The notes below the pieces were generated by a model, which was given only the letters and a program-made list of their open reading frames with translations, was not told where the DNA came from and ran no database searches. From Streptomyces sp. NBC_00102 (GTDB taxonomy: Bacteria; Actinomycetota; Actinomycetes; Streptomycetales; Streptomycetaceae): a stretch of DNA of 64,000 nucleotides. Made by a program: the position numbers and the translations under genes. Below, one piece after another: positions 12,542-42,315 of the stretch (position 1 is the first letter of the stretch; every line of letters starts with the position of its first letter). Location: contig NZ_JAPEMC010000001.1 of the NCBI RefSeq assembly GCF_026343115.1, forward strand, positions 4,855,501 through 4,919,500, read 5' to 3'.

Positions 12542-12551
12542 GCTCAATGGC

Positions 12552-13955
12552 ATGAGCGACACCCCGGACAGCGCCGTCCAGCCGTACATCGAGCAGCACC
12601 GCGAGTCCTTCCTCGAAGACCTCGCGGCATGGCTCCGCATCCCCTCCGTCTCCGCCCAGCCGGAGCACGCCGGGGACGTACGGCGCAGCGCCGCATGGCT
12701 GTCCGACAAGCTCAGGGACACCGGGTTCCCGGTGTCCGAGGTCTGGGAGACGCCGGGCGCCCCGGCGGTTTTCGCCGAGTGGCCCTCCGACGATCCCGAC
12801 GCCCCCGTCGTCCTGGTCTACGGCCACCACGACGTACAGCCCGCCGCCCGCGAGGACGGCTGGCACACCGAGCCGTTCGAACCGGTCGTCCGGGACGGGC
12901 GGATGTACGGACGGGGCGCCGCGGACGACAAGGGCCAGGTGTTCTTCCACACACTCGGCGTCCGCGCCCACCTCGCCGCGACCGGCCGCACCACCCCTGC
13001 CGTCCACCTCAAGCTCCTCGTCGAGGGCGAGGAGGAGTCGGGTTCCCCGCACTTCCGCGCCCTGGCCGAGGAACGCGCCGAGCGCCTCGCCGCCGACATC
13101 GTGATCGTCTCCGACACCGGCATGTGGGACGAGGACACCCCGACCGTCTGCACCGGCATGCGCGGCCTCGCCGAGTGCGAGATCGAGCTGTACGGCCCCG
13201 AGCAGGACATCCACTCCGGATCGTTCGGCGGTGCCGTCCCCAACCCCGCGACCGAGGTGGCCCGCCTGGTCGCCGCCCTCCACGACGAGCGCGGCCGCGT
13301 CGCCGTCCCCGGCTTCTACGACGGGGTGGCCGAACTCAGCGACGCCGAGCGCGCTCTCTTCGCCGAGCTCCCCTTCGACGAGGCCGCCTGGCTGCGCACC
13401 GCCAAGTCCACCGCTGCCTCCGGCGAGGACGGTTACTCCACCCTCGAACGTGTCTGGGCCCGCCCCACCGCCGAGGTCAACGGCATCGGCGGCGGCTATC
13501 AGGGCGCCGGCAGCAAGACGATCATCCCCTCCTCCGCGCTGGTCAAGATCAGCTTCCGGCTGGTCGCGGGCCAGGACCCGGACCGGGTGGAGAAGCTCGT
13601 ACGGAGCTGGGCCGAGGACCGGATGCCCGCGGGCATCCGCCACCGGATCACCTTCACCCCCGCGACCCGGGCCTGTCTGACCCCGCTCGACCACCCCGCC
13701 CTCCAGGCGCTGGCCCGCGCCATGGGGCGGGCGTTCGGCAAACAGGTCCTCTTCACCCGGGAGGGGGGCTCCGGCCCCGCCGCCGACCTCCAGGACGTGC
13801 TCGGGGCGCCCGTCCTCTTCCTCGGCATCTCCGTACCGTCCGACGGCTGGCACGCCCCCGACGAAAAAGTCGAGCTCGGCCTCCTTTTCAAGGGCGTGGA
13901 GACCACCGCCCACCTCTGGGGTGAACTGGCCGCCGCACTCCGCCGCAACAACTGA
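12552..13955 (+). CDS. M20 family metallo-dipeptidase
   Basis: A 467-aa cytosolic protein with metal-site motifs in M20 order: YGHHDVQP, GRGAADDKGQ, EGEEESGS and VSDTGMW, then the dimerisation lid domain, and a C-terminal active-site segment with EGGSGP and GWHAPDE. This matches the Streptomyces/CNDP-like branch of dipeptidases that use two zinc or manganese ions. ATG 12552 follows the AdnB stop by 10 nt, so it may be co-transcribed. Substrate range unknown. Confidence 0.9.
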   Translation: MSDTPDSAVQPYIEQHRESFLEDLAAWLRIPSVSAQPEHAGDVRRSAAWLSDKLRDTGFPVSEVWETPGAPAVFAEWPSDDPDAPVVLVYGHHDVQPAAREDGWHTEPFEPVVRDGRMYGRGAADDKGQVFFHTLGVRAHLAATGRTTPAVHLKLLVEGEEESGSPHFRALAEERAERLAADIVIVSDTGMWDEDTPTVCTGMRGLAECEIELYGPEQDIHSGSFGGAVPNPATEVARLVAALHDERGRVAVPGFYDGVAELSDAERALFAELPFDEAAWLRTAKSTAASGEDGYSTLERVWARPTAEVNGIGGGYQGAGSKTIIPSSALVKISFRLVAGQDPDRVEKLVRSWAEDRMPAGIRHRITFTPATRACLTPLDHPALQALARAMGRAFGKQVLFTREGGSGPAADLQDVLGAPVLFLGISVPSDGWHAPDEKVELGLLFKGVETTAHLWGELAAALRRNN

Positions 13956-13993
13956 GTACCCGATCCGCCCCGGGGGAGTAGGAAGCAAGAACT

Positions 13994-14941
13994 GTGAGTA
14001 CCTTCAGCACCGACCACACCAACCGCCCCATCGGCCTCACCGCCCCGAGCGGCATCGACCGCGCGGCCCACCACCGTCTGGACGAGGCGTGGCTCGCCGT
14101 CGCCTGGAGCCACCCCACCACCAAGGTCTTCGTCGTTTCCGGCGGCCAGGTGCTGGTCGACGACACCGCCGACGGCGGCACCGAGATCGTCATGACACCG
14201 GCCTTCGAGGCCCCCCTGACCGAGACCCACCGTTACTTCCTCGGCACCGACGGGGACGGGGTCAGCTACTTCGCCCTCCAGAAGGACTCGCTGCCCGGCC
14301 GGATGGACCAGCAGGCCAGGCCCGCCGGACTGCGCGAGGCGGGCATGCTGCTCAGCGACCGGGACGCCGGCCTCATGGTCCACGCGGTGGCCCTGGAGAA
14401 CTGGCAGCGGCTGCACCGCTTCTGCTCCCGCTGCGGCGAGCGCACCATGATCGCGGCGGCCGGGCACATCCGCCGCTGCCAGGCGTGCGGCGCCGAGCAC
14501 TACCCCCGTACCGACCCCGCCGTGATCATGCTGGTCGTCGACGACCAGGACCGCGCCCTGCTCGGCCGCCAGGTGCACTGGCCCGAGGGCCGGTTCTCGA
14601 CCCTCGCCGGGTTCGTGGAGCCGGGCGAGTCGATAGAGCAGTCGGTCGCCCGCGAGGTGCTGGAAGAGGCCGGAATCACCATCGGGGAGGTCGAGTACGT
14701 CGCCAGCCAGCCCTGGCCCTTCCCGTCCAGCCTGATGCTCGGCTTCATGGCGCGGGCCACCACGTCGGAGATAAACGTGGACGGCGACGAGATCGAGGAA
14801 GCCCGCTGGTTCTCCCGCGACGAACTGACGGAGGCCTTCGAGTCGGGCGAGGTACTGCCCCCGAACGGCATCTCCATCGCGGCCCGGCTCATCGAGATGT
14901 GGTACGGCAAGCCCCTCCCGAAGGTCCGCCCGCTGGGCTGA
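13994..14941 (+). CDS. nudC: NAD(+) diphosphatase / NADH pyrophosphatase, Nudix family
   Basis: A 315-aa protein, GTG start. A zinc ribbon (CSRCGE and CQACG, about residues 148-170) precedes the Nudix domain with GFVEPGESIEQSVAREVLEE (about 206-225) and the NudC-specific motif SQPWPFPSS. The family cleaves NADH/NAD to NMNH plus AMP and can remove NAD caps from RNA. It lies 38 nt after the dipeptidase stop. In mycobacteria nudC also sits next to uvrD2 and mycoredoxin, which supports the call. Confidence 0.93.
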   Translation: MSTFSTDHTNRPIGLTAPSGIDRAAHHRLDEAWLAVAWSHPTTKVFVVSGGQVLVDDTADGGTEIVMTPAFEAPLTETHRYFLGTDGDGVSYFALQKDSLPGRMDQQARPAGLREAGMLLSDRDAGLMVHAVALENWQRLHRFCSRCGERTMIAAAGHIRRCQACGAEHYPRTDPAVIMLVVDDQDRALLGRQVHWPEGRFSTLAGFVEPGESIEQSVAREVLEEAGITIGEVEYVASQPWPFPSSLMLGFMARATTSEINVDGDEIEEARWFSRDELTEAFESGEVLPPNGISIAARLIEMWYGKPLPKVRPLG

Positions 14942-15126
14942 GGCCGGGGGACGGGCGGCGGGCAGCGGGCCGGTCGGGCGGTGGACGGCCCGGTCGGGCG
15001 GGACGGGACAGGCCGTGCGGGCCGGAGCGGTCGGTGGTCACCGCTCCGGTGGGGTACGGCCGCGGACCCCGGGCCCGGTCCGGCCCGCTCCCGCCCGGCC
15101 CGCTCCCGCCCTTGCCGCGCGCAACC

Positions 15127-15507
15127 TCAGCCGGAGCCGGGTGAGCACACGGCCGGTGACGACTCCGTGTACTGCCCGGCGAGGCCGATCAGCTCGTCCA
15201 GGCGTGTCCGTGCCCGGGTCAGGTCCTCGATCCGGGCCTGGATGCGCTCGCGTTCGCCGGTGAGCCGGAGCGTCATCTCCGGCGTCGCGACCAGCGTGTC
15301 GGCGAACGGCAGGATGTCCAGGATCGCCTTGCTCGGCAGCCCGGCCGAGTAGAGGAGCTGGATGAACCTCACCCGCTCGACGTCGGACTCGGCGTACTGG
15401 CGCTGGTCCCCCGGACCACGGGCGGCGACGACGAGCCCCTGCTCCTCGTAGTAGCGCATGGCCCGAACGCTGACCCCCGCGCGTTCGGCGACCCTCCCGA
15501 TACGCAT
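15127..15507 (-). CDS. MerR family transcriptional regulator
   Basis: A 126-aa protein from ATG 15507 (MRIGRVAERAGVSVRAMRYYEEQG), the classical MerR start; an in-frame start at 15549 would add 14 unconserved residues. It has a winged helix-turn-helix in the first 70 residues, then a coiled-coil dimer helix. There are no effector cysteine pairs of metal or SoxR sensors. It is divergent from an SDR gene whose promoter carries a perfect MerR-type palindrome in a 19-bp spacer, so the SDR is the likely target. The ligand is unknown, possibly a small organic molecule. Confidence 0.87.
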   Translation of the reverse strand: MRIGRVAERAGVSVRAMRYYEEQGLVVAARGPGDQRQYAESDVERVRFIQLLYSAGLPSKAILDILPFADTLVATPEMTLRLTGERERIQARIEDLTRARTRLDELIGLAGQYTESSPAVCSPGSG

Positions 15508-15602
15508 CGCGTCCAGCCTCCTTCGTCCGGTCGTCCTCGGCCGTTTCATCCGGTCCTATGCTCCGATGCCGGAACTCGTTCGGACCCGATCCGGGCATGG
15601 AC

Positions 15603-15634
15603 TTGAACCTCACGTCGGCGTGAGGTTTTAGCGT
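15603..15634 (+). promoter_or_regulatory. MerR-type promoter/operator of the SDR gene
   Basis: The -35 is TTGAAC (15603-15608) and the -10 is TTAGCG/TAGCGT (15628-15634), separated by 19-20 bp, the overlong spacing MerR activators correct. The spacer contains perfect inverted half-sites ACCTCACG (15607-15614) and CGTGAGGT (15619-15626). The expected start site is at or very near the ATG at 15641, so the mRNA may be leaderless. Confidence 0.75.
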
Positions 15635-15640
15635 ACGTGC

Positions 15641-16348
15641 ATGGACATCAGCGGAGCCACAGCGCTCGTCACCGGAGCGAACCGCGGCATAGGCCGCCAC
15701 CTCGCAGCCCAGCTCGTGGAGCGGGGCGCGAAGGTCTACGCGACCGCACGTCGGCCGGAAGCCGTCGACCTCGACGGCGTGGAGATCCTCGCCCTCGACA
15801 TCACCGACCCCGACGCCGTCGCGACCGTCGCCCGCACGGCTCACGACGTCGACCTGCTCGTCAACAACGCGGGCATCGGAGGCGGCACCCTGCTCGGCGA
15901 CCTCACCGGCGTCCGCGCCACCCTGGACGTGAACTTCTGGGGCACCCTCTCCATGGTCCGGGCCTTCGCGCCGGTCCTGGAGAAGAACGGCGGCGGCGCC
16001 GTCCTGAACATCGCGTCCTCGGCGTCCTGGTTCGTCTTCCCCGGCAACGGCGCCTACGGGGTCTCGAAGGCGGCCGTCTGGAGCATGGGCAACGCGCTGC
16101 GCCAGGAGCTGGCCGGACAGGGAACCACCGTCACCTCGGTCCACCTCGGCGCCGCCGACACCGACATGATGAAGGGGTACGACGTGCCCAAAATGGCACC
16201 GGCGGACGTCGCGCGCGCGGCTCTCGACGGTGTCGAGGCGGCGGCGTACGAGGTCGTCGTGGACGAGTTCACCCACATGGTGAAGGCCTCGCTGAGCGGG
16301 GACCCGAGGGAGTTCGAGAGCCAGTTCCTGAAGCTTCTCCAGGCCTGA
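15641..16348 (+). CDS. Short-chain dehydrogenase/reductase (SDR)
   Basis: A 235-aa classical SDR. It has the TGANRGIG nucleotide-binding motif (about residues 11-18), NNAGIGG, a catalytic Ser in the NIASSAS segment and YGVSK. No transmembrane segment. The substrate is not deducible. It is divergent from the MerR regulator and probably controlled by it. No ribosome-binding site precedes the ATG, consistent with leaderless translation. Confidence 0.9.
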   Translation: MDISGATALVTGANRGIGRHLAAQLVERGAKVYATARRPEAVDLDGVEILALDITDPDAVATVARTAHDVDLLVNNAGIGGGTLLGDLTGVRATLDVNFWGTLSMVRAFAPVLEKNGGGAVLNIASSASWFVFPGNGAYGVSKAAVWSMGNALRQELAGQGTTVTSVHLGAADTDMMKGYDVPKMAPADVARAALDGVEAAAYEVVVDEFTHMVKASLSGDPREFESQFLKLLQA

Positions 16349-16424
16349 CCAGCGCGGTAGGGCCGGAAGCTTCTCCAGGCCCGACCACGCGCACGGCGCC
16401 CGTTCCCACGCGGCGCCCGTTCCC
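16331..16424. repeat. Short direct repeats across the SDR 3' end
   Basis: AAGCTTCTCCAGGC plus YGACCA occurs at 16331-16351 (spanning the SDR stop codon) and again at 16367-16387, 36 bp on, with one mismatch. CGGCGCCCGTTCCC then occurs at 16394-16407 and 16411-16424. Looks like recent local duplication. Confidence 0.65.
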
Positions 16425-16460
16425 GCACGGCGGCCCTGCCCCCGCCACCGCGGCAAGCGA

Positions 16461-16500
16461 ACGAGGCCCTCACCCGGTTCTTCACCGGGCGGGGCCTCGT
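16461..16500. terminator. Bidirectional terminator between SDR and mycoredoxin genes
   Basis: Outer arms ACGAGGCCC (16461-16469) and GGGCCTCGT (16492-16500), with an inner CCCGG/CCGGG stem. It sits between two convergent genes, 25 nt from the mycoredoxin stop. Confidence 0.7.
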
Positions 16501-16525
16501 GCGCAGTCGTACCGCGTGCGGCGGG

Positions 16526-16783
16526 TCAGGCGCCGAGCGCCTGCTTCACCTGCGCGAGGCTGGGGTTGGTCATGACGACCTCGGAGCCGCCCTGCGCGGG
16601 AACGATCCGGACGGTGGGAACCGTCTGGTTTCCGCCGTTCGCCTTCTCGACGAAGGCGGCCGACTCCGGGTCCAGCTCGATGTTGATCTCGGTGTACCCG
16701 ATGCCCTCGCGGTCCATCTGGCCCTTGAGGCGGCGGCAGTAGCCGCACCACGTGGTGCTGTACATCGTCACTGTGCCCGGCAT
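16526..16783 (-). CDS. mrx1: Mycoredoxin (glutaredoxin-like, mycothiol-dependent)
   Basis: An 85-aa thioredoxin-fold protein from ATG 16783, preceded by AGAGGAG at good spacing. The active site WCGYC lies near residue 11-15, followed by the TVPTVRI cis-proline loop. Mycoredoxins reduce mixed disulfides with mycothiol. The family in mycobacteria is encoded beside uvrD2 and nudC, as here. A perfect sigma-R-type promoter lies about 150 bp upstream, linking the gene to thiol-oxidative stress and the sigR-rsrA locus in the same window. Confidence 0.92.
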   Translation of the reverse strand: MPGTVTMYSTTWCGYCRRLKGQMDREGIGYTEINIELDPESAAFVEKANGGNQTVPTVRIVPAQGGSEVVMTNPSLAQVKQALGA

Positions 16784-16829
16784 GTCGTTGGTGCTCCTCT
16801 GGTCGTCTCGTCCGTTTCGCCGCACGCCC

Positions 16830-16859
16830 GAAGCCGGAAAGGCCGAAGCCGGAAAGGCC
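16830..16859. repeat. 15-bp tandem duplication in mycoredoxin leader
   Basis: GAAGCCGGAAAGGCC is present twice back to back (16830-16844 and 16845-16859), within the predicted 5' untranslated region of the mycoredoxin gene. Confidence 0.75.
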
Positions 16860-16931
16860 GAAAAGGTGCGGTGCCCGGGTCCGCGCACCATGCACCCGAA
16901 GCAGGATGATGGACGCAGAACCCGCCCTCAC

Positions 16932-16958
16932 AACGCGCGCGGCCCCGTCGCCATTCCC
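16932..16958 (-). promoter_or_regulatory. Sigma-R (ECF) promoter for mycoredoxin
   Basis: On the minus strand GGGAAT (16958-16953), exactly 18 bp, then GTT (16934-16932). This is the sigma-R consensus GGGAAT-N18-GTT and has the same form as the promoter in front of sigR (51345-51371). Predicted leader about 140 nt. Confidence 0.75.
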
Positions 16959-16983
16959 CGCCGTCATCCCCGTTGCCTTTTCC

Positions 16984-17007
16984 GCCGTCATTCCCGCCGT
17001 CATTCCC
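16984..17007. repeat. 12-bp tandem repeat between mycoredoxin and uvrD2
   Basis: GCCGTCATTCCC occurs at 16984-16995 and 16996-17007, with degenerate copies on both sides. The 360-bp interval 16784-17143 otherwise holds the mycoredoxin promoter and leader, and presumably the uvrD2 promoter. Confidence 0.6.
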
Positions 17008-17143
17008 GCAGTCGTCCCCGTCGTCATTCCCCCTCGCCGGTTCCCCACGGCCACCCCCGCCGCAGTCCCCGCCGGTATGACGGATGCGTCACCCCTGTGG
17101 ACAACCATCCCGGTGGCCTCCGGCGACCTGGCAGCATGGCAGG

Positions 17144-19369
17144 GTGACAGCAGCAACGCATTCCACCCTCTTCCCCCAGGTGCCCGAGTCCCCGGACGCG
17201 GTCCTGGAAGGGCTCGATCCCGAGCAGCGCGAGGTCGCCCTCGCCCTGCACGGGCCGGTGTGCGTACTGGCCGGAGCGGGCACGGGCAAGACCCGCGCGA
17301 TCACCCATCGCATCGCGTACGGCGTCCGCGCCGGGATCCTCCAGCCGTCCACCGTGCTGGCCGTCACGTTCACCAACCGGGCCGCCGGCGAGATGCGCGG
17401 ACGCCTCCGCCAGCTCGGCGCCACGGGGGTGCAGGCGCGCACGTTCCACTCCGCCGCACTGCGCCAGCTCCAGTACTTCTGGCCGAAAGCAGTCGGTGGC
17501 GAGCTGCCCCGGCTGCTGGAGCGCAAGGTGCAGATGGTCGCCGAGGCGGCGGCCCGCTGTGAGATCCGTCTCGACCGCAACGAACTCCGTGACGCCACGA
17601 GCGAGATCGAGTGGTCCAAGGTCACCCAGACCGTTCCGGCCGACTACCCGGCCGCCGTGGCCAAGAGCCTCCGCGACGCCCCCCGCGACCCCGCGGAGCT
17701 CGCCAAGATCTACGCGACGTACGAACAGCTGAAGCGCGACCGGTCCGTGATCGACTTCGAGGACGTGCTGCTGCTCACAGTCGCGATCCTCCAGGACCGC
17801 AAGGACATCGCCGAGAGCGTCCGCGCCCAGTACCAGCACTTCGTGGTCGACGAGTACCAGGACGTCAGCCCGCTCCAGCAGCGGCTGCTCGACCTCTGGG
17901 TCGGCGGCCGGGACAACCTCTGCGTGGTGGGCGACGCCAGCCAGACGATCTACTCCTTCACCGGCGCCACCCCCGACCACCTGCTGAACTTCCGTACCGC
18001 CCACCCGAACGCCACCGTGGTCAAGCTGGTCCGGGACTACCGCTCCACCCCGCAGGTCGTCCACCTGGCCAACGGGCTCCTGAGCCAGGCGAGCGGACGG
18101 GCCGCCGAGCACCGCCTCGAACTCGTCTCCCAGCGCGACAAGGGCCCCGAGCCCCTCTACACGGAATACGCGGACGAACCGGCCGAGGCGGAGGGAACCG
18201 CCCGCCGCATCCGCGACCTCATCGCGGCGGGCGTGCCGGCGGGGGAGATCGCCGTCCTCTACCGGGTGAACTCCCAGTCCGGCGTCTACGAGCAGGCGCT
18301 CGCCGACGCCGGGGTGCCCTACCAGCTGCGCGGGGCCGAGCGGTTCTTCGAACGCCGCGAGGTCCGTGAGGCATGGGTGGCCCTGCGCGGCGCCGCCCGC
18401 GCCGGCGGGAACGACTCCCTGGTCGACGCCGCCGAAGGGCTGCCCTCCCAGGTGCGGGCCGTGCTCTCCACCCAGGGCTGGACGAACCGCCCGCCCGGCG
18501 GCTCCGGGGCGGCGCGCGACCGCTGGGAGTCGCTGGCCGCGCTGGTCCGGCTGGCCGAGGACTTCGAACACGCGAAGCACGACGCGACCCTCGCCGATCT
18601 CGTCCGGGAGCTCGACGAGCGGGCCGCCGCCCAGCACGCGCCGACCGTCCAGGGCGTCACCCTGGCGTCGCTGCACGCGGCCAAGGGGCTGGAGTGGGAC
18701 GCGGTGTTCCTTGTCGGGCTGACCGAGGGCATGATGCCCATCGCCTACGCCAAGACCGACGAGCAGGTCGAGGAAGAACGCCGTCTCCTGTACGTCGGGA
18801 TCACCCGGGCCCGCTTCCACCTCGCGCTCTCCTGGGCGGTGTCGCGTTCGCCGGGAGGCCGGGCCGGCCGACGGCCCACCCGCTTCCTCAACGGACTGCG
18901 CACCGGCTCCGGGGCGGGGGCCCGGGGCGGAGTCGGAGGCGGCGGAGGCATCGACCGCGGTACGGGCCCCGGCGCCGCCGTCACGACCACGCGCACCGAG
19001 GGCACGGTCCAGCGCAAGAAGTGGGGTCCGGTGCGGTGCCGGGTCTGCGGCCGGACCCTGACCGCGGCCGGCGAGATGAAACTGATGCGCTGCGAGGACT
19101 GCCCCTCCGACATGGACGAGGCGCTCTACGAACGGCTGCACACCTGGCGCGCCGCCCGGGCCGGGGAACTCTCCCAGCCCGCCTGGTGCGTGTTCACCGA
19201 CAAGACCCTGATGGCCATCGCCGAGGCCGTTCCCGGCAGCGAGCGCGAACTCGTCACCATCCCGGGGGTCGGGAACCGCAAGATGGGCCGCTTCGGCAGC
19301 GATGTACTGGCCATCTGCGCAGGTGAGGACGTGGATGGGGGAGATTGCGGGGGTTCCCGCGAGGAGTGA
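17144..19369 (+). CDS. uvrD2: UvrD2-type ATP-dependent DNA helicase with HRDC domain
   Basis: Start GTG 17144 gives 741 aa. SF1A motor: GAGTGKTRA (about residue 44), FTNRAA, DEYQDVS (about 236), GDASQTIYSFTGA, LHAAKGLEWD and YVGITRAR. The motor is followed by a Gly-rich linker, a tetracysteine motif (CRVCGR and CEDC, about 631-655) and a C-terminal HRDC domain (about 662-730, ending near IPGVGNRKMGRFG). The tetracysteine plus HRDC tail distinguishes actinobacterial UvrD2 from UvrD1. UvrD2 is essential in mycobacteria. The neighbours NudC, mycoredoxin and WblC repeat the mycobacterial order. Confidence 0.93.
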   Translation: MTAATHSTLFPQVPESPDAVLEGLDPEQREVALALHGPVCVLAGAGTGKTRAITHRIAYGVRAGILQPSTVLAVTFTNRAAGEMRGRLRQLGATGVQARTFHSAALRQLQYFWPKAVGGELPRLLERKVQMVAEAAARCEIRLDRNELRDATSEIEWSKVTQTVPADYPAAVAKSLRDAPRDPAELAKIYATYEQLKRDRSVIDFEDVLLLTVAILQDRKDIAESVRAQYQHFVVDEYQDVSPLQQRLLDLWVGGRDNLCVVGDASQTIYSFTGATPDHLLNFRTAHPNATVVKLVRDYRSTPQVVHLANGLLSQASGRAAEHRLELVSQRDKGPEPLYTEYADEPAEAEGTARRIRDLIAAGVPAGEIAVLYRVNSQSGVYEQALADAGVPYQLRGAERFFERREVREAWVALRGAARAGGNDSLVDAAEGLPSQVRAVLSTQGWTNRPPGGSGAARDRWESLAALVRLAEDFEHAKHDATLADLVRELDERAAAQHAPTVQGVTLASLHAAKGLEWDAVFLVGLTEGMMPIAYAKTDEQVEEERRLLYVGITRARFHLALSWAVSRSPGGRAGRRPTRFLNGLRTGSGAGARGGVGGGGGIDRGTGPGAAVTTTRTEGTVQRKKWGPVRCRVCGRTLTAAGEMKLMRCEDCPSDMDEALYERLHTWRAARAGELSQPAWCVFTDKTLMAIAEAVPGSERELVTIPGVGNRKMGRFGSDVLAICAGEDVDGGDCGGSREE

Positions 19370-19383
19370 GGAAAACTCGTCGG

Positions 19384-19422
19384 AAAAATAGTTTGCGCCC
19401 GCGCCAGTCGTCACCATAGGTT
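19384..19422 (+). promoter_or_regulatory. Promoter of the wblC leader, with WhiB7-type A/T element
   Basis: The -35 is TTGCGC (19393-19398), then 18 bp, then the -10 TAGGTT (19417-19422). An A/T run (AAAAATA, 19384-19390) lies immediately upstream of the -35, the feature WhiB7/WblC with the principal sigma factor recognises at its targets, including its own gene. Confidence 0.65.
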
Positions 19423-19428
19423 CTTAAC

Positions 19429-19467
19429 CACGGAAACAGCGGGCTTCTCCGAAGCCCACCTTCCGTG
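19429..19467 (+). promoter_or_regulatory. 5' leader hairpin of wblC mRNA
   Basis: Nested stem: CACGGAA (19429-19435) with TTCCGTG (19461-19467), and GGGCTTC (19441-19447) with GAAGCCC (19451-19457). It begins at the predicted transcription start, so it caps the mRNA. Confidence 0.6.
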
Positions 19468-19546
19468 CTGTACTTGCCTGTACCCATCCGAATAAGCAGG
19501 ACCAGCCCCGGCCGGTCCCCCGAGACGCCGAGAGGAGGCGATTCCA

Positions 19547-19882
19547 GTGATCAGCATCATCAAGACCGTCAAAATGACCGATCGCCCCGTCGTCTCCGCA
19601 TGCTCACTCGGCCTTCTCGGCTCCTCGGATGTCTCGCTTCTCGGCACCGGTCTGTCCGGCATTTCCGCCGCACGCCCGTTGCCTCTGGCGTCCCTGCCCG
19701 TGGTCCGGGAGCGCAATGAGCGACCGATCCAGGCATCGGCGGCAGCAGGAGCGAAGGCAGAACAGGCTCAGGCCTATGCCTTTGCGGCAGCCGGTGCCGG
19801 ATTCGTAAGCGCGAAGCAGACGACGTACCACCACACGATGTGGGCCTTCCGTGGGCCTGAACCCTGGAGCGATCCAGCCTGA
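19547..19882 (+). CDS. Upstream ORF in the wblC leader, 111 aa, Ala-rich C-terminal half
   Basis: GTG 19547 is preceded by a very good ribosome-binding site (GAGAGGAGG). The 111-aa product has no recognised domain. Residues 63-89 contain 14 alanines. The ORF stops 24 nt before an intrinsic terminator, and its stop codon lies inside a hairpin. Position and composition fit a regulatory uORF whose slow translation relieves termination in front of wblC. It could also encode a stable small protein; the sequence does not exclude that. Confidence 0.7.
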   Translation: MISIIKTVKMTDRPVVSACSLGLLGSSDVSLLGTGLSGISAARPLPLASLPVVRERNERPIQASAAAGAKAEQAQAYAFAAAGAGFVSAKQTTYHHTMWAFRGPEPWSDPA

Positions 19883-19895
19883 TCCAGCATCAGGC
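19877..19895 (+). promoter_or_regulatory. Hairpin overlapping the uORF stop codon
   Basis: GCCTGAT (19877-19883) pairs with ATCAGGC (19889-19895) around a 5-nt loop. The TGA stop (19880-19882) lies in the left arm, so a terminating ribosome would open it. A competing partner for ATCAGGC is GGCCTGA at 19854-19860. Confidence 0.5.
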
Positions 19896-19906
19896 CGGCG
19901 CCTTCA

Positions 19907-19949
19907 GGGCCGCGGAACCCCACTCGGGATCCGCGGCCCTTTTGTTTTG
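19907..19949 (+). terminator. Intrinsic terminator/attenuator inside the wblC leader
   Basis: Perfect 10-bp stem GGGCCGCGGA (19907-19916) with TCCGCGGCCC (19930-19939), plus inner CCC/GGG pairs, followed at once by the T-tract TTTTGTTTTG. A canonical T-rich terminator is rare in this GC-rich genome. It stands between the uORF and wblC, on the same strand. Confidence 0.88.
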
Positions 19950-20054
19950 TCCGAACGGATGAGACAGGACGAAGGAGCCTCGGGACAAGCAGTACCTGGT
20001 ACCAGCCGACAACCGGCCAACAGCCGGAAACACCAGACGAGGACACCACCCACC

Positions 20055-20423
20055 GTGCAACTCGAAGCGCACGCCCCGTCCGTACCGCCTTCCCCCTCGA
20101 TCGTCCCGCCCGGTTCCACGGAGGACCCCACCTTGTTGCCCCTCACCACCCTCACCGCTCTCGACGACGCCATCGAGAACCTCGGCACCCCGGTGCCCTG
20201 TCGCTCCTACGACCCCGAGGTCTTCTTCGCCGAGTCGCCCGCCGACGTCGAGTACGCCAAGTCCCTCTGCCGGACCTGCCCCCTCGTCGAGGCATGCCTC
20301 GCCGGCGCCCAGGAGCGCCGCGAGCCCTGGGGCGTCTGGGGCGGCGAGCTCTTCGTCCAGGGCGTCGTCGTCGCCCGGAAGCGGCCCCGTGGCCGTCCGC
20401 GCAAGAACCCGGTCGCGGCGTGA
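20055..20423 (+). CDS. wblC: WblC/WhiB7 redox-responsive transcription factor
   Basis: GTG 20055 gives 122 aa. Four cysteines (PCRSY, then CRTC and EAC) form the WhiB 4Fe-4S site at about residues 55-91; GVWGGE, the WhiB turn, follows; the C-terminus carries the AT-hook RGRPRKN. The AT-hook identifies the WhiB7/WblC branch, which activates intrinsic resistance to ribosome-targeting antibiotics together with the principal sigma factor. An in-frame extension to 19851 exists but would cross the terminator, so the internal start is chosen. Expression is probably controlled by the leader attenuator. Confidence 0.92.
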   Translation: MQLEAHAPSVPPSPSIVPPGSTEDPTLLPLTTLTALDDAIENLGTPVPCRSYDPEVFFAESPADVEYAKSLCRTCPLVEACLAGAQERREPWGVWGGELFVQGVVVARKRPRGRPRKNPVAA

Positions 20424-20515
20424 CCGCCGACCTGGGAGTCATGACTCCCGCAGTACCGCTTCTGGTCGGCACCATCGACCGCCCCCACACTCATGACCCG
20501 CGAAATCAGGCACCC

Positions 20516-20779
20516 ATGACCACCCCCACGAAGGAGCCCGTCGGCTCCGCCACCCCCGACGTCACGAACTCCGGCGCGAACGACTCGCGTCAGAACAGGA
20601 ACCGCGAGATGCAACTCATCCCAGAAGCCATGGCTCGTGCGCATATGCACGACCGCCTGGCCGTAGCCGAGGCGGAACACCGGGCCGTCCGCCTGGTCTA
20701 CGCCCGGCGGATGCAGCGCAAGGCCGAGCGCGCGTCGCTGCGCGCTCGCCGCGCGCTCGCCATGGCAGTCATGCAGTAG
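20516..20779 (+). CDS. Small basic conserved hypothetical protein, 87 aa
   Basis: Start ATG 20516. The N-terminal 30 residues are Thr/Pro/Asn-rich and likely disordered. The rest (about residues 35-87) is a long amphipathic helix with many Arg and Ala residues. No known domain. It begins 92 nt after wblC on the same strand; between them is a short palindrome (GGGAGTCATGACTCCC, 20434-20449). It ends before the strong hairpin at 20838-20887, so it could share the wblC transcript. Confidence 0.6.
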   Translation: MTTPTKEPVGSATPDVTNSGANDSRQNRNREMQLIPEAMARAHMHDRLAVAEAEHRAVRLVYARRMQRKAERASLRARRALAMAVMQ

Positions 20780-20837
20780 GAGAGCCGGGCGCCCCGGAGC
20801 ACAGCTCCGTGCGCAGGCCCCAGGCCCCCCCCCACCT

Positions 20838-20887
20838 CACCCCGCCCGCCGGGCCCGTCGAACAGGACGGGCCCGGCGGGCGGGGTG
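20838..20887. terminator. 22-bp perfect inverted repeat, bidirectional terminator
   Basis: Arms 20838-20859 and 20866-20887 pair perfectly around the 6-nt loop GAACAG. Almost all G/C, no T-tract. It separates the rightward wblC-linked gene from the leftward methyltransferase. A run of nine C precedes it (20825-20833). Confidence 0.8.
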
Positions 20888-20985
20888 CTGTCGGGGTGCT
20901 GTCCGGACGGGGTCCGCGAACGGCCAGGTCATCGCCCTGTCCCACCCGGTGGGTCACGGAGGTCGCCACACTGCGCCGACCAGCG

Positions 20986-21825
20986 TCAGCGCCTTCGTGA
21001 CACCGCCAACTCGATGAGAGAGCGCCTGGTCACCCGGCCGTCGTACCGCCCGTCGATCAGGTTCGCGATGCAATCCAGCAGTCCGTTCCTGGCGGCTTCC
21101 GGAAGAGCTCGGTGACCGGAGAAGGTCCGCAGCAGCTCCAGATACCTCGACGTGGTGTAGGTGAGGTCCTGCTCGTAGCGGCGACATACGGTGGGACCGA
21201 ACCGTCGGCTTCGCTCGATCTCCCGCACATGGTCCAAGCCCTCGATGTCGGCGGCTGCCGGAAGCCGCAGCCCGGGTGGCGTCGCTGGGTCGAAGCGCTC
21301 GTAGCAGCGCTGGACCTCGATGAAGAACCCCTCGGTCCCGCCCCTCACATGCTGAGTGCGCACCACGGCGAGCGCCCCATCCGGACGCAGCGCGTCGGCG
21401 GCCTTGGCCACCCGCAGTGCCGGGTCAATCCAGTGGAACGCCGACGCCGAGACGACCGCGTCGAACGGCTCCTGAGGCAACGGCCAGCTCTCGAACTCCG
21501 CCGTCACCACCCGCGCCGCCGAGGCATCAGCGAGGTTGCGGCGGGCGACCGCGGCCATGCTCGGTCCTGCCTCGACGGCCGTAATCCGACAGCCGCGCTC
21601 AGCCAGCGGCACCGTGGCCTGGCCGGTCCCGCAGCCCACCTCCAGTACCCGGCTGCCGGTGCGGGCACCCGCGAGCTCCGCGAGGTCGTCGTACAGCTCC
21701 GGCGGATAGCCGGGCCTGGCCCGGTCGTACAACTCCGCATCCTCGTCGAATGTCCGGCTCAGGCGCACCCGCCGGGATTCCTCAGGCCGGTCGTCGCGCT
21801 TCGCGTGCGTGGTGTTGTCGGACAT
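20986..21825 (-). CDS. Class I SAM-dependent methyltransferase
   Basis: 279 aa from ATG 21825 (an upstream TTG at 21846 is possible). Motif I LEVGCGTGQ (about residues 62-70) and acidic motif II VEAG, a FDAVVSASAFHWID segment, and a C-terminal helical lid. This resembles the Trans_aconit/UbiE-like group of small-molecule methyltransferases. Substrate unknown. It stands alone between a strong terminator and a 0.5-kb non-coding stretch. The protein has more Arg/Thr and the DNA fewer G/C runs than the flanks, so it may be part of an acquired segment. Confidence 0.85.
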   Translation of the reverse strand: MSDNTTHAKRDDRPEESRRVRLSRTFDEDAELYDRARPGYPPELYDDLAELAGARTGSRVLEVGCGTGQATVPLAERGCRITAVEAGPSMAAVARRNLADASAARVVTAEFESWPLPQEPFDAVVSASAFHWIDPALRVAKAADALRPDGALAVVRTQHVRGGTEGFFIEVQRCYERFDPATPPGLRLPAAADIEGLDHVREIERSRRFGPTVCRRYEQDLTYTTSRYLELLRTFSGHRALPEAARNGLLDCIANLIDGRYDGRVTRRSLIELAVSRRR

Positions 21826-22365
21826 GCGGAGCAGGTTAAAGGCCAAGGCCGTGAAGTCAGGACCTGGCCGTTGGCGTCAAGATCGTGATGTTGAGCGTGG
21901 CCGGGTAGGTTCGCCGGTCAACACTGAGGCTTTTGTGTGCGTAGCGGGACAGTCTCAGGCAATGCCTGCGCGTTCATGTACGAAATTGACGGCCGCAACC
22001 GCTCTTCTTCGGCATCCGCCAAGTCGCCCGGCCCCACCACCGGGGCAGCGCCCGGTGAGCCGACAGCCGCACGCTCGGGCGGACATCCCCTCTTGCGGGC
22101 CGACTGGGAATTGCGGACATGCGCCTCCGGCGTCCGCCGTCCACGCCCTCGCGGCACCCCCTGATCTCCCCCTCGGCAAGGGAGCGTTGCCCTGCTCCCA
22201 TAACCCTCCTCACCCATTCGAGTGGGGTCCGGAGAAGCCCGGACTACGGGAGTTCGCTCGGGCGGACGGCGTGGGATTTCGTCCATGTGTCGTGCGGGCC
22301 CCGGTCTCGTTTCCAGTCGTGCGTTCTGCCGCGCCGCCCGTCACCTGCGGAGTTATCGTCACGGC
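21826..22365. other. 540-bp interval with no convincing gene, possible mobile-element scar
   Basis: Lower GC than its surroundings at about 21850-22010. It contains CAGGCAATGCCTG (21957-21969), a short near-palindrome, and CTGAG/CTCAG flanking repeats (about 21926 and 21953). Open frames lack ribosome-binding sites and recognisable domains. The lower-GC part resembles a decayed transposon end, but no transposase remnant can be read. Confidence 0.4.
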
Positions 22366-22566
22366 GTGGACGAGGAGACCTATCACCCCGAGCTGCCGGA
22401 AGCCCCCCACGTGTTCTGTGGGAGGTGCGGCACAAACGCCGGCACGACCGCACCACCCACCTGGATGTGCGAGGTGGAGAAGGACGGGCGCCAGTACTAC
22501 TGCGAGAACTGCGCCCGCGCCCACATCCGGGCCATCGAAAGCCGGCTCGCCCCCGCTCTCTGGTGA
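22366..22566 (+). CDS. Small zinc-ribbon-like protein, 66 aa
   Basis: GTG 22366. Cysteines in the order CGRCG, WMC and CENC give four to five candidate zinc ligands. The N-terminus is acidic (DEETYHPELPEAP). The C-terminal helix is Arg/Ala-rich. Likely a structural zinc-ribbon; function not recognised. A terminator-like stem follows at 22601-22625, which supports a real transcription unit. Confidence 0.6.
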   Translation: MDEETYHPELPEAPHVFCGRCGTNAGTTAPPTWMCEVEKDGRQYYCENCARAHIRAIESRLAPALW

Positions 22567-22600
22567 GTCCCCGTCGCCCCGGTCTCTCGAGAGCAAACGA

Positions 22601-22625
22601 CGGCCCGGGCGCTCCCCCCGGGCCG
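22601..22625 (+). terminator. Probable terminator after zinc-ribbon gene
   Basis: CGGCCCGGG (22601-22609) pairs with CCCGGGCCG (22617-22625), 7-nt loop, no T-tract. Confidence 0.5.
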
Positions 22626-22697
22626 GACCGCCACGGCCCCACCCTGGGACAAGGGCCGCCGGCCAACCGGTCAGCAACCCGGGACAGACTCGGCCGA

Positions 22698-22928
22698 ATG
22701 GGAATGTTCAAGCGGGGAAGGAAGGTGGAAAGCGCTGGTCAGGCTGGTCATCAGGCCGACCTGAGTGTGCTGCTCGCGCAGGGCGAAGAAATGATCGAAC
22801 AGCTCAGGGCTGTCCCGCAATCCCTGGTGGGTGCGCGACGACAGCTACGGCACCTCGCCGCGTTGTCGGAACGTCCACATACATCCAGTATGCGGACGCT
22901 CCTCCGCCTTGCGATGCACCGCATCTGA
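22698..22928 (+). CDS. Hypothetical 76-aa protein
   Basis: Starts ATG 22698 (MGMFKRGRKVE). Predicted mostly helical, with a basic N-terminus and a central LLAQGEEMIEQLR helix. No domain recognised. It precedes the DUF6882-like gene by 53 nt on the same strand. It could be a real small gene or a remnant; the codon pattern is only moderately typical. Confidence 0.4.
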   Translation: MGMFKRGRKVESAGQAGHQADLSVLLAQGEEMIEQLRAVPQSLVGARRQLRHLAALSERPHTSSMRTLLRLAMHRI

Positions 22929-22981
22929 CGCCGCGCACTGATCCACCACGGATTACGGGACAGCCCTTCGGTCGCGCACAT

Positions 22982-23401
22982 ATGTCCTGGGGGCTGGGAT
23001 CGGCCGACCGCTGGGATCTCGACCAGACGACCGGCACGATCACATGGACCTTCCCCGACAAGACGGCGACGGCACCGGCGCAGATTCTGGGCAGCTTCAA
23101 CTCCACCTCGGGCTCCTGGATGTGGGCCTGGGTGAATCCGAGCGTCCTTCCCGGCCTGAGCAGCGACGCGCGCGACTTCCGGGACTGGGCGGAGGCGAAC
23201 GGGCATCCCGCGCTCGCCCGGCCGAAGATCGAGGCCGACGCGAAGGCCGCAGCCACCCTCGTGGCCCTGGCCGTCCGGGTCACGAGGGCGACCGGCTATT
23301 ACCGGAGCCAGGGAAACAACTCCCTGATCGTCACGTTCGGTCCGGTCACCCTGACAGCGGCGGACGGCAGCGTCTCCAGCTTCAACATCGATACCGAGTA
23401 G
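22982..23401 (+). CDS. DUF6882-type protein, 139 aa
   Basis: ATG 22982. The run WDLDQTTGTITWTFPD, then APAQILGSF, SWMWAWVNPSV, a central ARDFRDWAEA helix, and a C-terminal ATGYYRSQGNNSL region match the conserved layout of DUF6882 proteins of unknown function. Family members often carry an extra N-terminal helix, which is absent here, so the protein may be a short form or 5' truncated. No clear ribosome-binding site. Confidence 0.6.
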   Translation: MSWGLGSADRWDLDQTTGTITWTFPDKTATAPAQILGSFNSTSGSWMWAWVNPSVLPGLSSDARDFRDWAEANGHPALARPKIEADAKAAATLVALAVRVTRATGYYRSQGNNSLIVTFGPVTLTAADGSVSSFNIDTE

Positions 23402-23518
23402 GACCGACACGGCGCCGGGCCTCGGCTCACAGGGCCGAGACTTGGCGGCCAGGCCAGGCCAGGCGTCCCGGCTCGTCCGGCGCGGGTGCCGAGCGGCCGG
23501 GCGTCCGGAAGTGCTGCC

Positions 23519-25129
23519 CTACACCTCCTCGGCATCCCGCTCGGCCCGTCCGTCGGAGGTCCTTTGCCCGTCGCGGCCCGCCAGCGCGCTCGGGCCTTCC
23601 GAGCCGACCAAAACCCCGAGGCCGTCCGCACCCTCCGCACCCTCCCTGCCGATCACGCCCTCCGCGCCCTCAGCCCTCTCCATGCCCTCGTCGCTGCCCG
23701 CACAGCCCTCGCTGCCCGCATCGTCCTCGCCGCCGGCCCCGGCCTCGCCGTCCGGCTCCGGGAAGCCGGGCAGCCATGCTTCGAGCTCGTCCCGCAGACG
23801 CACGGTCGCGCCCAGCTGGCAGAGCACCCCGATCGTGCTCAGCGTCACCCGGTGTATGAGGAGATAGGAGGGCGGGAGGTTCAACTGCCGTCCGAGCCGG
23901 TGTGCGGGGGAGCGGGGATCGGCGATCCGGGCCGCTTGGGTGCGCAGCCACCCCCGGCTGAAGGTGAACGCCTCCACCTGGGCCGGTTCGATGACCGGGA
24001 TCAGGTAGTCCAGGACGGCATCGGGGTCCAGATCGACCGATTCCGGTACAAAACCCGCCCGCCGGAGCAGTGCGTACACCTCTTCCGCCTCCCCGAGCAG
24101 GGTCATCCGCAAGGCCTCGCCGACGATCTCGGGCAGCCCTCCCGGCAATCGGTCGACCGTGCCGAAGTCGAGTACCCCGAGACGCCACTCCCGCGCCCCG
24201 CCGTGCTCGGGGGACTCCTCCTGGGCGGGGACGAGCGGCGGCTCCTCGTCGGCGGGAGGCAGCAGGCGGAAGTTGCCCGGGTGCGGGTCCGCGTGGAGCA
24301 GACCCGTCCGGGCAGGTCCGGAGAAGAGGAAGCGCGACAGCAACTGGCCCGCCCGGTTCCGCTGCTCCGGCGTTCCCCGCTCGATCACCTCGGACAGCGG
24401 GAGCCCGTCCATCCACTCCGTCACGAGCACTTGGTCCGACTGGAGCACCACACCCGGCACGACCACGTCGGGGTCGTCCGCGAACTCGGCCGCGTGCGCC
24501 TCCTGCGCCCGCGCCTCCAGCGCGTAGTCCAGTTCCTCGGACACCCGGTCGCGCATCTCCTTGATCAGCGGCTTGATGTCCATGCCGGGGATCAACGGCC
24601 CGAGGAGCCGCGCGAACCTGCTGAGCTGAGTGAGGTCCGACAGCAGCGCTTCCCCGGCGCCCGGATACTGCACCTTCACCGCAACCTCGCGCCCATCGCG
24701 CCAGACCGCCCGGTGCACCTGGCCGATGGACGCCGCGGCGGCCGGCTGGTCGTCGAACGAGAGGAAGAGCTCGCGCCAGCTCTCGCCGAGCCGCTCCGCG
24801 AGCACCTGGTGGACCGTGCGCACCGGCATCGGGGGAGCGGCCTCCTGGAGCTTCGTCAGCGCCGCCCGGTACGGACCGGCCACCTCCTCGGGCAGCGCGG
24901 ACTCGAACACGGAGAGCGCCTGACCGAGCTTCATGGCACCACCCTTCAGCTCACCCAGGGTCTTGAAGAGCTGGTCCGCCGTCCGCTGCTGCACCTCGCG
25001 GGCCACCAGCTCGGCCGGTCTGCCGCCGATCCGCTTGCCCAGGCCCCACGTGGCGCGGCCGGCGAAGCCGAGCGGCAGCGCGGCCAGTTTCGCGGTGCGG
25101 GTGACCGCCTTGCGGGGAAGATCGGACAT
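23519..25129 (-). CDS. ABC1/AarF/UbiB-family atypical kinase
   Basis: 536 aa, ATG 25129 preceded by GGAGGAGC. ABC1 signatures are present: the KxGQ-type motif as GGAMKLGQALS (about residues 60-70), invariant Lys in VAVKVQYPG, LLHADPHPGNF (catalytic loop) and LDFGTVDRL (DFG). The C-terminal 70 residues are low-complexity Gly/Glu/Ala/Asp repeats. The family acts in isoprenoid-quinone and lipid homeostasis. The mycobacterial counterpart beside whiB7 has been linked to macrolide tolerance, so the location near wblC is noteworthy. The start lies 64 nt from the ThiF-like gene upstream, likely co-transcribed. Confidence 0.9.
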   Translation of the reverse strand: MSDLPRKAVTRTAKLAALPLGFAGRATWGLGKRIGGRPAELVAREVQQRTADQLFKTLGELKGGAMKLGQALSVFESALPEEVAGPYRAALTKLQEAAPPMPVRTVHQVLAERLGESWRELFLSFDDQPAAAASIGQVHRAVWRDGREVAVKVQYPGAGEALLSDLTQLSRFARLLGPLIPGMDIKPLIKEMRDRVSEELDYALEARAQEAHAAEFADDPDVVVPGVVLQSDQVLVTEWMDGLPLSEVIERGTPEQRNRAGQLLSRFLFSGPARTGLLHADPHPGNFRLLPPADEEPPLVPAQEESPEHGGAREWRLGVLDFGTVDRLPGGLPEIVGEALRMTLLGEAEEVYALLRRAGFVPESVDLDPDAVLDYLIPVIEPAQVEAFTFSRGWLRTQAARIADPRSPAHRLGRQLNLPPSYLLIHRVTLSTIGVLCQLGATVRLRDELEAWLPGFPEPDGEAGAGGEDDAGSEGCAGSDEGMERAEGAEGVIGREGAEGADGLGVLVGSEGPSALAGRDGQRTSDGRAERDAEEV

Positions 25130-25192
25130 GTGCTCCTCCAGTTCGTGAACTGCGGTGCCGGTGCGCCCATCGCGTCGATCCGGCGACGGCGG

Positions 25193-26335
25193 TCACCCGG
25201 CCATTGTGTCGTGAGCGGGGCCCGAGGCGGGGGAAAGCGCCCCGGCGGTGCGAGCGGCGCCGCACACACACGCCTGGTGCGGCGCGATCCGTTCGCCGCG
25301 CCATTCCATGAGGGGCAGCGCCGCTTCCCAGCGGGCGCCCGTGGCCGCCGGCAGTTCGCCGTCCAGGAAGGACAGGGCGTGCGAAGCGGCGAACCCGGCC
25401 ACCGCTGCCGACAGGGCGAGGTCGCAGGCGGGCACCGCGCCCCGCCGCCCGGTCCGCCACTGCGCCACCATGCGCGGCCACTGCGCGTCCTGGTCCGCCC
25501 TGTGCAGGCCCAGACAGCCCGCGCATCCCGTGCCTCCCGGCAGCACCAGCGGGCCCACCACCCCGGTGGCCTCGATCACTCCCGCGTACAGATGGGGGGT
25601 GCCCGAGGAGATCCAGGGCTCGGCGGTCCCCGGGTCGGGGGCGTACACCGCGAGACCGTCGCGCGGGGCGACCACGACCAGGGACAGGCCGGGACCACCG
25701 GCCTCCGGTCCGCCGCCCGTCTCCGCCTCGCGCGGCGGAGCTCCCGCGGCCGACCGGCGCACGAGCCGACGGGCCGAGGCGTCGCGGCGTTCGCCGACCG
25801 CCGAGGAAGGCAGGCCGCCGGGCGCCACGTCCCAGGGTTCCGTCAGACCGCCGTCCAGCACGTCCACCCGGCCCACCCCGGACCCCGAGAGCAGCGCCGC
25901 GATCGCGGCACCGACCCGGCCGGCGCCCCGGACCTGCACCCGCATCGCCCGCCGCGCGGCGAGCCGGCGGACCGCGCTCCCCGGTTCGGGGTGCACCACG
26001 GAGAGCGAGGCGGCGTCCGGACGCTGCCGGTCCAGTACATCGGCCCGGCGGCGCAAGGCCGCGGCCTCCACGCCACCCGCGTGCGGATCGTCCAGGAGAC
26101 CCGCCCCCGCCAGCCGCTCCACGAGCACGTCCACATGGCGCTCCGCCAGGTCCAGCGAGCGGGCCTCCTCCTTCAGCAGGGGCAGCCCCCGGGTGCCGTC
26201 GAGCAGCTCCAGGAAACTCCCCGTGGCGATGTCCAGAGGGCCGAAGGTGACCGCGTGCGCGGGAGTGACCCCGAATTGCACGGTGCTCCGTCCACGCCAT
26301 GCGCGGCGCAGCGCGGGCTTCAGCATCGGATGCAT
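25193..26335 (-). CDS. ThiF/E1-like adenylyltransferase-fold protein of unknown function
   Basis: 380 aa, start ATG 26335 with GGGAGA upstream. The N-terminal 130 residues resemble the winged-helix part seen in cyclisation or leader-peptide-binding ThiF proteins. A Rossmann segment VRGAGRVGAAIAALL (about 134-148) follows. A C-terminal cysteine set (GCAGCLG and ACVCGAA) could bind zinc. The nucleotide-binding Arg/Lys set of true E1 enzymes is not obvious. No ubiquitin-like or RiPP precursor gene is adjacent. Conserved next to the ABC1 kinase in actinobacteria, so a link between the two is likely. Confidence 0.75.
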   Translation of the reverse strand: MHPMLKPALRRAWRGRSTVQFGVTPAHAVTFGPLDIATGSFLELLDGTRGLPLLKEEARSLDLAERHVDVLVERLAGAGLLDDPHAGGVEAAALRRRADVLDRQRPDAASLSVVHPEPGSAVRRLAARRAMRVQVRGAGRVGAAIAALLSGSGVGRVDVLDGGLTEPWDVAPGGLPSSAVGERRDASARRLVRRSAAGAPPREAETGGGPEAGGPGLSLVVVAPRDGLAVYAPDPGTAEPWISSGTPHLYAGVIEATGVVGPLVLPGGTGCAGCLGLHRADQDAQWPRMVAQWRTGRRGAVPACDLALSAAVAGFAASHALSFLDGELPAATGARWEAALPLMEWRGERIAPHQACVCGAARTAGALSPASGPAHDTMAG

Positions 26336-26559
26336 CTCTTTCTCCCTTTACGGTCGGGCCGCTTACGGTCGGGGCCGCTCTTCCTGACCGGACTTCTCCG
26401 GCCTCTCCGCTCACAGAATGCCGACGGAGCACGAAACCCGCCGAAAGTTATCCACAGGGGCGGGAATTAGTCGTTCAAATGGTGTGCTTCCTGCGAGGAT
26501 CGGAGAGGAACCGCAAGGGAGGCGGGACTTCCGCAAGGAACAGCGGGTAACGTCGGAGC

Positions 26560-27180: not shown

Positions 27181-27287
27181 CGAGCGGTCACTCTGTACCG
27201 ACTGTGTACCGACTTGGCTCGATGTCGTAGTTTGCGGATAGCCTGACGCGACGCATTCACATTCGGGATGGGGGACGGTCGTTACGC

Positions 27288-39842: not shown

Positions 39843-39848
39843 CTGAAA

Positions 39849-42310: not shown

Positions 42311-42315
42311 CTAAA

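Follow-up and report, generated by a model that had tools for sequence, protein, structure and literature searches.

The wblC (whiB7) leader of Streptomyces sp. NBC_00102, a probable ribosome-mediated transcription attenuator

The wblC locus

The 64-kb stretch of Streptomyces sp. NBC_00102 DNA analysed here (the window) contains a wblC (whiB7) gene preceded by a long leader, in which a putative promoter and a predicted 5′ hairpin are followed by an upstream open reading frame (uORF), a hairpin that spans the uORF stop codon, and an intrinsic terminator (Table 1). The gene product matches the Pfam family Whib (E 6e-15, 56 bits) and has no match in NCBIfam, and a wblC search of the 8.6-Mb genome returns the gene itself at E 2e-80, with the next of 8 matches at 5e-10. 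A wblC-like gene is present in all 61 sampled genomes of the family (this one included) and in 130 of 148 sampled genomes of the class (E up to 1e-12). Comparison of positions 19300-20200 with Rfam gives no match above the gathering score and one below it, to ncS54 at 20.3 of 43 bits; across the whole window Rfam finds two tRNAs only. Between the terminator and wblC there is also a short inverted repeat, CCGGCCAACAGCCGG (20013-20027), which is moderately conserved in the 81 Streptomyces leaders described below.

Table 1. Features of the wblC leader and gene, with positions counted from the first base of the window.
Feature	Position	Strand	Remarks
Putative promoter	19393-19422	+	-35-like TTGCGC 19393-19398; 18-nt spacer; -10 TAGGTT 19417-19422 (TANNNT type)
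5′ hairpin of leader RNA	19429-19467	+	Predicted fold
uORF Shine-Dalgarno GGAGG	19534-19538	+	8 nt upstream of GTG start; flanking columns nearly invariant in 81 leaders
uORF	19547-19882	+	GTG start, 111 codons, stop TGA 19880-19882
Alanine-codon cluster	19733-19798	+	Codons -49 to -28 before uORF stop; possible starvation sensor
Strand 1 TTCCGTGG	19847-19854	+	Resembles terminator 3′ arm; pairs with CCGCGGAA 19910-19917
GGCCTGA	19854-19860	+	Alternative pairing with TCAGGCC 19890-19896
Strand 2 CCCTGGAG	19862-19869	+	Codons Pro-Trp-Ser; conserved antiterminator strand (predicted), 11-18 nt before uORF stop
Stop-codon hairpin GCCTGAT-CCAGC-ATCAGGC	19877-19895	+	Spans uORF TGA; inside predicted antiterminator loop
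Strand 2′ CTTCAGGG	19902-19909	+	Partner of strand 2; overlaps terminator 5′ arm
Intrinsic terminator with T tract	19906-19948	+	5′ arm 19906-19916, 3′ arm 19930-19940, T tract 19940-19948
wblC/whiB7 gene	20055-20423	+	GTG start, 122 codons; ~105 nt past T tract

Leader samples

The 81 Streptomyces leaders are that of the window together with the best 80 of 568 confirmed matches, drawn from at least 591 pattern matches. Among the 130 class genomes with a match, 11 belong to the same genus (this genome included), and regions were fetched from 67 of the other 119; together with 51 genomes of other genera in the family and two of the same genus, which form the family-level set of 53, these make up 120 fetched regions. 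Two class regions in which our script found no terminator (L188 and L200) were dropped, leaving 65 class leaders; the element of L200 (genome G137) was nonetheless detected by the attenuator model R1 discussed below. One fetched entry, L141, is probably the same record as L061. The MAFFT alignment A1 combines the window with 112 fetched regions and 21 Streptomyces loci, 134 distinct sequences in all, and strand 2′ is shifted in it by one base between groups.

Promoter, 5′ hairpin and start of the uORF

The original prediction read this leader as a translation-coupled attenuator of wblC that begins with an A/T-flanked promoter and a 5′ hairpin ahead of a uORF with a strong ribosome-binding site, and these upstream parts hold up well. 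Promoter columns are near-invariant in an alignment of the 81 sampled Streptomyces leaders, though a sigma-70 consensus scan of positions 12000-28000 detected no promoter, and the promoter call thus draws on conservation in the 81 leaders and not on the scan. On its upstream side the -35-like element adjoins A-rich DNA (19382-19391), a candidate binding place for WblC itself, for which positive autoregulation is stated in an excerpt of PMC7157823. Most pairs of the 5′ hairpin are kept by the majority of the 81 leaders, with two middle pairs kept in 7 and 2 of the 81 only. The 111-codon frame and its GGAGG can be read directly from the DNA. This Shine-Dalgarno motif sits within CGCCGAGAGGAGGCG (19526-19540), a segment nearly invariant in the 81 leaders that could form a small hairpin with GGAGG partly in the stem; as judged from the bases that would pair, such a hairpin might limit uORF initiation.

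The intrinsic terminator

The terminator stem is formed by GGGCCGCGGA (19907-19916) with TCCGCGGCCC (19930-19939), giving 11 bp when the pair A19906-T19940 is included, and is followed by TTTTGTTTT. Such structures are scarce in this DNA, as had been predicted: the window has three sites with a perfect stem of 9 bp or more, a loop of 3-15 nt and 6 or more T in 10, one in the wblC leader and one past each tRNA-Met gene, and 20 dinucleotide shuffles of the window contain one in total. A separate terminator scan of positions 12000-28000 gave 5 sites against 3.9 in shuffles and missed the wblC leader terminator, probably owing to its maximum loop length of 8 nt. Folding of the leader RNA is stronger than in every shuffle (z -3.7, 0/200; z -4.4, 0/100). 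The two tRNA-Met genes (anticodon CAT; 39769-39843 and 42237-42311) lie about 2.4 kb apart with equal Rfam scores. Of the strong inverted repeats just past them, that at 39855-39879 is flanked by T-rich sequence on the minus strand and that at 42319-42349 on both strands.

The terminator is kept in all 81 sampled Streptomyces leaders, with the 11-bp AGGGCCGCGGA arm in 80 and 10 bp in L065, and was found in 118 of the 120 fetched distant regions by a script that gives a bonus to stems containing GGCC. Its position relative to the uORF is also constant within narrow limits. The uORF stop lies 29 nt upstream of the GCCGCG terminator core in the window and 20-33 nt upstream in 199 of 201 leaders, and all 199 leaders with a terminator had such a stop, in a search that accepted only stops 14-36 nt before the terminator arm.

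Stop hairpin and predicted antiterminator strands

Between 19838 and 19950 (113 bases) the 81 Streptomyces leaders hardly vary at most positions, the exceptions being the hairpin loops and codon -8. Strand 2 is identical in all 81 and strand 2′ in 73, with two other octamers in the remaining eight; the helix that they form (2:2′) encloses the stop hairpin. Strand 1 is near-invariant in Streptomyces, where it extends the 2:2′ pairing. What is conserved at the RNA level across the distant leaders is a strand before the stop codon that is complementary to bases before and inside the terminator 5′ arm, together with the stop hairpin.

Covariation was assessed by a permutation test in which leaders were anchored on the stop codon and the terminator core, the control being 5′ segments set against the 3′ segments of other genomes. 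In the 65 class leaders, 2:2′ has a mean of -13.5 kcal/mol against -11.5 permuted (z -7.3, 0/300) and the stop hairpin -11.3 against -8.6 (z -10.4, 0/300). With one genome per genus (n=50), none of 1000 permutations reaches the observed value for either helix, and helices of at least 6 bp occur in 60% against 31% permuted, in distinct versions that include CCTGGAG/CTCCAGG, CCTCGAGG/CCTCGAGG, GCCTTTGAG/CTCAAAGGC and CCACGGAG/CTCCGTGG, among others. Alignment A1 behaves similarly: 83.0% of cells are paired against 78.0% shuffled, both sides change in 21 of 26 pairs against 13.3, and covariation, at 0.175, exceeds the 0.108 of shuffled and the 0.082 or less of slid controls. All seven pairs of the stop hairpin have both-side changes in A1, and two of the 26 drawn pairs are left open in most of the 134 rows (109 and 85).

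In the family-level set the stop hairpin gives z -4.3 (0/300) and 2:2′ a weak z -2.0 (4/300). Covariation of the stems among Streptomyces leaders had been suggested as a check, and there the 81 sampled sequences bear out the stop hairpin (z -8.4) but not 2:2′ (z +1.1), for which there is no signal because strand 2 is invariant. The stop hairpin is present as proposed and covaries, but the suggestion that it is specific to this leader does not stand, since it is found across the sampled class. Strand 1 covaries weakly with the terminator arm (z -1.9 in the class set, -1.8 in the family-level set) and is invariant in Streptomyces in the permutation test. From these patterns we predict an antiterminator in which uORF sequence pairs with the 5′ arm of the terminator, the conserved part being the 2:2′ helix that covaries in the class set.

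The position of the antiterminator strand provides some indication of what it is fixed to. When the 67 nt before the stop are scanned, the best helix starts 16-20 nt before it in 33 of the 65 class genomes, whereas 200 permutations give 17.6 on average and never more than 24; in the family-level set this location test does not discriminate (52/53 against 51.4 permuted). Among 48 class helices of at least 6 bp, starts fall within 3 nt of each other in 31 when measured from the stop and in 22 when measured from the terminator core, with median deviations of 1 and 2 and interquartile ranges of 4.0 and 3.25, respectively. Restricting the set to helices 14-22 nt before the stop gave standard deviations of 1.42 (stop) and 2.65 (core), a restriction that itself favours the stop. 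The antiterminator strand therefore appears to track the uORF stop more closely than the terminator, but by a modest margin. A ribosome with the last codon (19877) in its P site would cover approximately 19862-19892; the 26-nt rule given in an excerpt of PMC13236596, centred on the stop, corresponds to 19868-19893 and touches only two bases of strand 2.

Folding with and without a ribosome

In folding of the nascent RNA without a ribosome, 2:2′ has P 0.94-0.95 when the transcript reaches 19910, with the stop hairpin formed, and strand 1 pairs at P 0.97-0.98 by 19928, at which point strand 1 and a CCTGA:TCAGG pairing (TCAGG 19904-19908) dominate the nascent fold. When 19841-19871 or 19856-19886 is masked, the antiterminator pairings are lost and the terminator forms next. 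A ribosome placed on the stop codon removes 2:2′, but strand 1 is still able to pair with the terminator arm, at P 0.97-0.98 at 19928 when the RNA is folded from 19770 and at P 0.41 when it is folded from 19780; with other masks the terminator 5′ arm pairs with other upstream bases at about 0.8. The arm is at least half paired upstream in 81/81 Streptomyces, 53/53 family-level and 61/65 class leaders without a ribosome, and in 62/81, 36/53 and 24/65 with a ribosome at the stop.

These results lead us to think that the Streptomyces switch probably needs the ribosome to be within the last 14 codons, and not just at the stop. In each of the nine ribosome settings tried, equilibrium favours the terminator as soon as it is complete (P 0.99-1.0). 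Equilibrium folding consequently does not cleanly reproduce a switch and, as far as these models go, antitermination must be kinetic.

The uORF peptide and its codons

The uORF peptide has no match in Pfam or NCBIfam. A uORF is present in all 81 sampled Streptomyces leaders, each with Trp at -5 and -13 before the stop, and the Streptomyces peptides have long conserved blocks in common. At the class level the peptides share little beyond the last few residues, typically W-S-P-P-V-stop or similar, which overlap strand 2 and the stop hairpin. At conserved residues of the Streptomyces uORFs the major codon is kept at 0.975 in the last 14 codons and 0.939 in the rest (p 0.08); because codon choice is likewise preserved at conserved residues upstream of those 14 codons, selection on the peptide and on the nucleotide sequence are not separated in Streptomyces. 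Among the class uORFs Pro occurs at -3 in 42 of 65 and at -2 in 51 of 65. The third base of the -3 codon is free (CCA 23, CCG 11, CCC 6, CCT 2), hinting at selection for a Pro-Pro peptide, and Pro is at -3 in none of the 81 Streptomyces or 53 family-level uORFs.

Alanine codons make up 39.7% of codons -50 to -25 in the 81 Streptomyces uORFs against a background of 13.4% in 30 long window ORFs, selected on their G+C at the second and third codon positions, a choice that may lower their Ala share. The uORF of the window as a whole is not Ala-rich (20 of 111 codons, p 0.10, not significant), so the cluster alone stands out. The share over the same codons is weaker elsewhere, at 27.0% in the family-level set and 20.3% in the class; 17 of the 65 class uORFs have at least 25% Ala over codons -50 to -15, and that of genome G107 (L207), which may be mycobacterial, has 24 Ala among 68 codons. 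In folding with the A site on the Ala codon at 19796 the antiterminator pairings form as they do without a ribosome, and the cluster is a possible starvation sensor in this leader. Excerpts of PMC10727445 cite a requirement for WhiB7 during alanine starvation in mycobacteria, and those of PMC11550727 describe uORF-regulated expression of whiB7/wblC under amino-acid starvation.

Searches with a model of the element

In its own genome R1 scores the wblC element at 103 bits and the next candidate at 33.9 bits (150 of 20070 first-look candidates scored), and we therefore discard the idea of further strong copies among them. The weaker matches include G000:C1:1220804-1220899 (L210, 33.9 bits) and G000:C1:1419611-1419715 (L211, 30.3 bits), which are possibly just similar terminators. 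Across the phylum, R1 had matches with E no higher than 0.1 in 28 of 149 genomes, and most of these are weak. Neither G137 (E 4e-7) nor G063 (E 1.6e-4) belongs to the set from which R1 was built, and their matches precede the beginning of whiB7 homology by 164 and 88 bases, respectively. At the whiB7 sites of G090 and G123 the model found nothing, with no match in the former and matches elsewhere than the whiB7 gene in the latter.

Relation to known systems

The mechanism is not new, and this leader is a rediscovery of the known wblC/whiB7 attenuator. According to excerpts of PMC12421871 and PMC11550727, wblC is controlled by ribosome-mediated attenuation that responds to ribosome drugs and amino-acid starvation, and an excerpt of PMC10727445 states that the antiterminator uses overlapping uORF and terminator sequences. 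The mechanism is described as established in Streptomyces and mycobacteria, and is credited to Lee, Lee and Roe (2022, Mol Microbiol 117:179) in the passages of PMC12421871, PMC11550727, PMC10727445 and PMC13393426 that cite it. To judge from these citing papers, the leader described here is alike in gene, uORF, intrinsic terminator and overlapping-sequence antiterminator, and we know of no mechanistic difference, the likeness being drawn through the citing papers and not strand by strand. Among the papers listed by our literature search, no title or abstract opening dealt with the strand-level structure in Streptomyces, and we make no claim that it is unpublished.

The mycobacterial whiB7 leader, as described in excerpts of Dinan et al. 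(2014, PMC4128351), shares a uORF and attenuation at a terminator stem-loop that follows it; its uORF starts about 10 nt after the Shine-Dalgarno motif. Amino-acid attenuators of the trp type, including M. tuberculosis ilvB1 (excerpted from PMC13236596), share the logic in which a ribosome that reaches the stop masks the antiterminator and a stalled one frees it, but the wblC leader differs in having a long uORF rather than a short leader peptide, in being reported as a general sensor of translation stress, and in having a transcription factor as its target. The Streptomyces ABCF leaders are5sc and tiaA, in the portions of PMC12421871 that treat them, also combine a uORF with a predicted terminator/antiterminator and a response to ribosome drugs, although the tiaA transcriptional reporter is given there as constitutive; in their uORFs, of 3 and 9 codons, the ribosome stalls on the start codon, in contrast to the 111 codons and 3′-end switch of the wblC leader.

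Proposed mechanism and alternatives

We consider the wblC (whiB7) leader to be, very probably, a ribosome-mediated transcription attenuator, and the conservation and covariation of its parts support the originally proposed coupling of wblC transcription to translation through the uORF and terminator. In unstressed cells a ribosome would trail RNA polymerase along the uORF and, on passing through the last codons to the stop, would mask strand 1 and then strand 2 and melt the stop hairpin. With these strands masked no antiterminator could form, the GGGCCGCGGA arm would be free, the terminator would form and wblC would not be transcribed. Where initiation or elongation is blocked upstream, in this strain presumably by ribosome drugs or at starved codons such as those of the Ala cluster, strands 1 and 2 would be free as 19902-19917 emerge and, ahead of synthesis of the 3′ arm, could form helices with 2′ and the 5′ arm of the terminator that enclose the stop hairpin, giving read-through into wblC; WblC would then probably activate its own promoter.

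An alternative explanation is that the uORF encodes a drug-sensing arrest peptide, such that the specific nascent chain, beyond the position of the ribosome, sets the switch. The long conserved blocks of the Streptomyces peptides and the class Pro at -3 with its free third base fit this, whereas the class peptides are alike mainly where they overlap strand 2 and the stop hairpin, and the conserved residues in Streptomyces also keep their codons; we regard it as unlikely. Less likely still is that the antiterminator strand competing with the terminator is GGCCTGA, as the original prediction had it. That heptamer is complementary to TCAGGCC, and its CCTGA part, which alone joins the later extension, pairs with TCAGG in the nascent fold, but it is found in only 14 of the 81 Streptomyces leaders, and the strand that covaries is 19862-19869. 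Its full pairing competes with the stop hairpin and not with the terminator, with which it can coexist, and in most folding runs it is seen while the transcript is still short of about 19905 or once the terminator has been completed, the exceptions being 0.33 at 19915 in one run and about 0.8 when a ribosome occupies the first Trp codon. We have accordingly rejected GGCCTGA in favour of strand 2.

It is harder still to credit that the terminator is constitutive, or marks the end of a separate short RNA, with wblC set only by promoter strength and WblC autoactivation. While the terminator is very strong and is favoured whenever complete, and the promoter region is highly conserved, this reading leaves aside the published reports of control by read-through and the covarying helices that the sampled class has beside the uORF stop, one of them incompatible with the terminator. 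Attenuation by the translating ribosome thus remains our preferred reading. A broader proposal, in which wblC/whiB7 leaders throughout the class form a single RNA element that Rfam still lacks, the antiterminator strand being set at the ribosome's reach from the uORF stop so that dwell time at the stop is the sensor, with Pro-Pro codons before the stop (in the class outside Streptomycetaceae) slowing the ribosome to tune termination and the Streptomyces Ala cluster making alanine supply a second input, is tentative, and we think it doubtful that all of its parts would hold together.

Significance

The analysis locates the predicted strands of the known switch, documents their covariation within a sample of the class, and corrects the proposed antiterminator strand. 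Since wblC/whiB7 turns on intrinsic resistance to ribosome-targeting antibiotics in actinobacteria, the RNA strands that would release it are worth knowing, and covariation across the class offers a precise and testable version of the switch.
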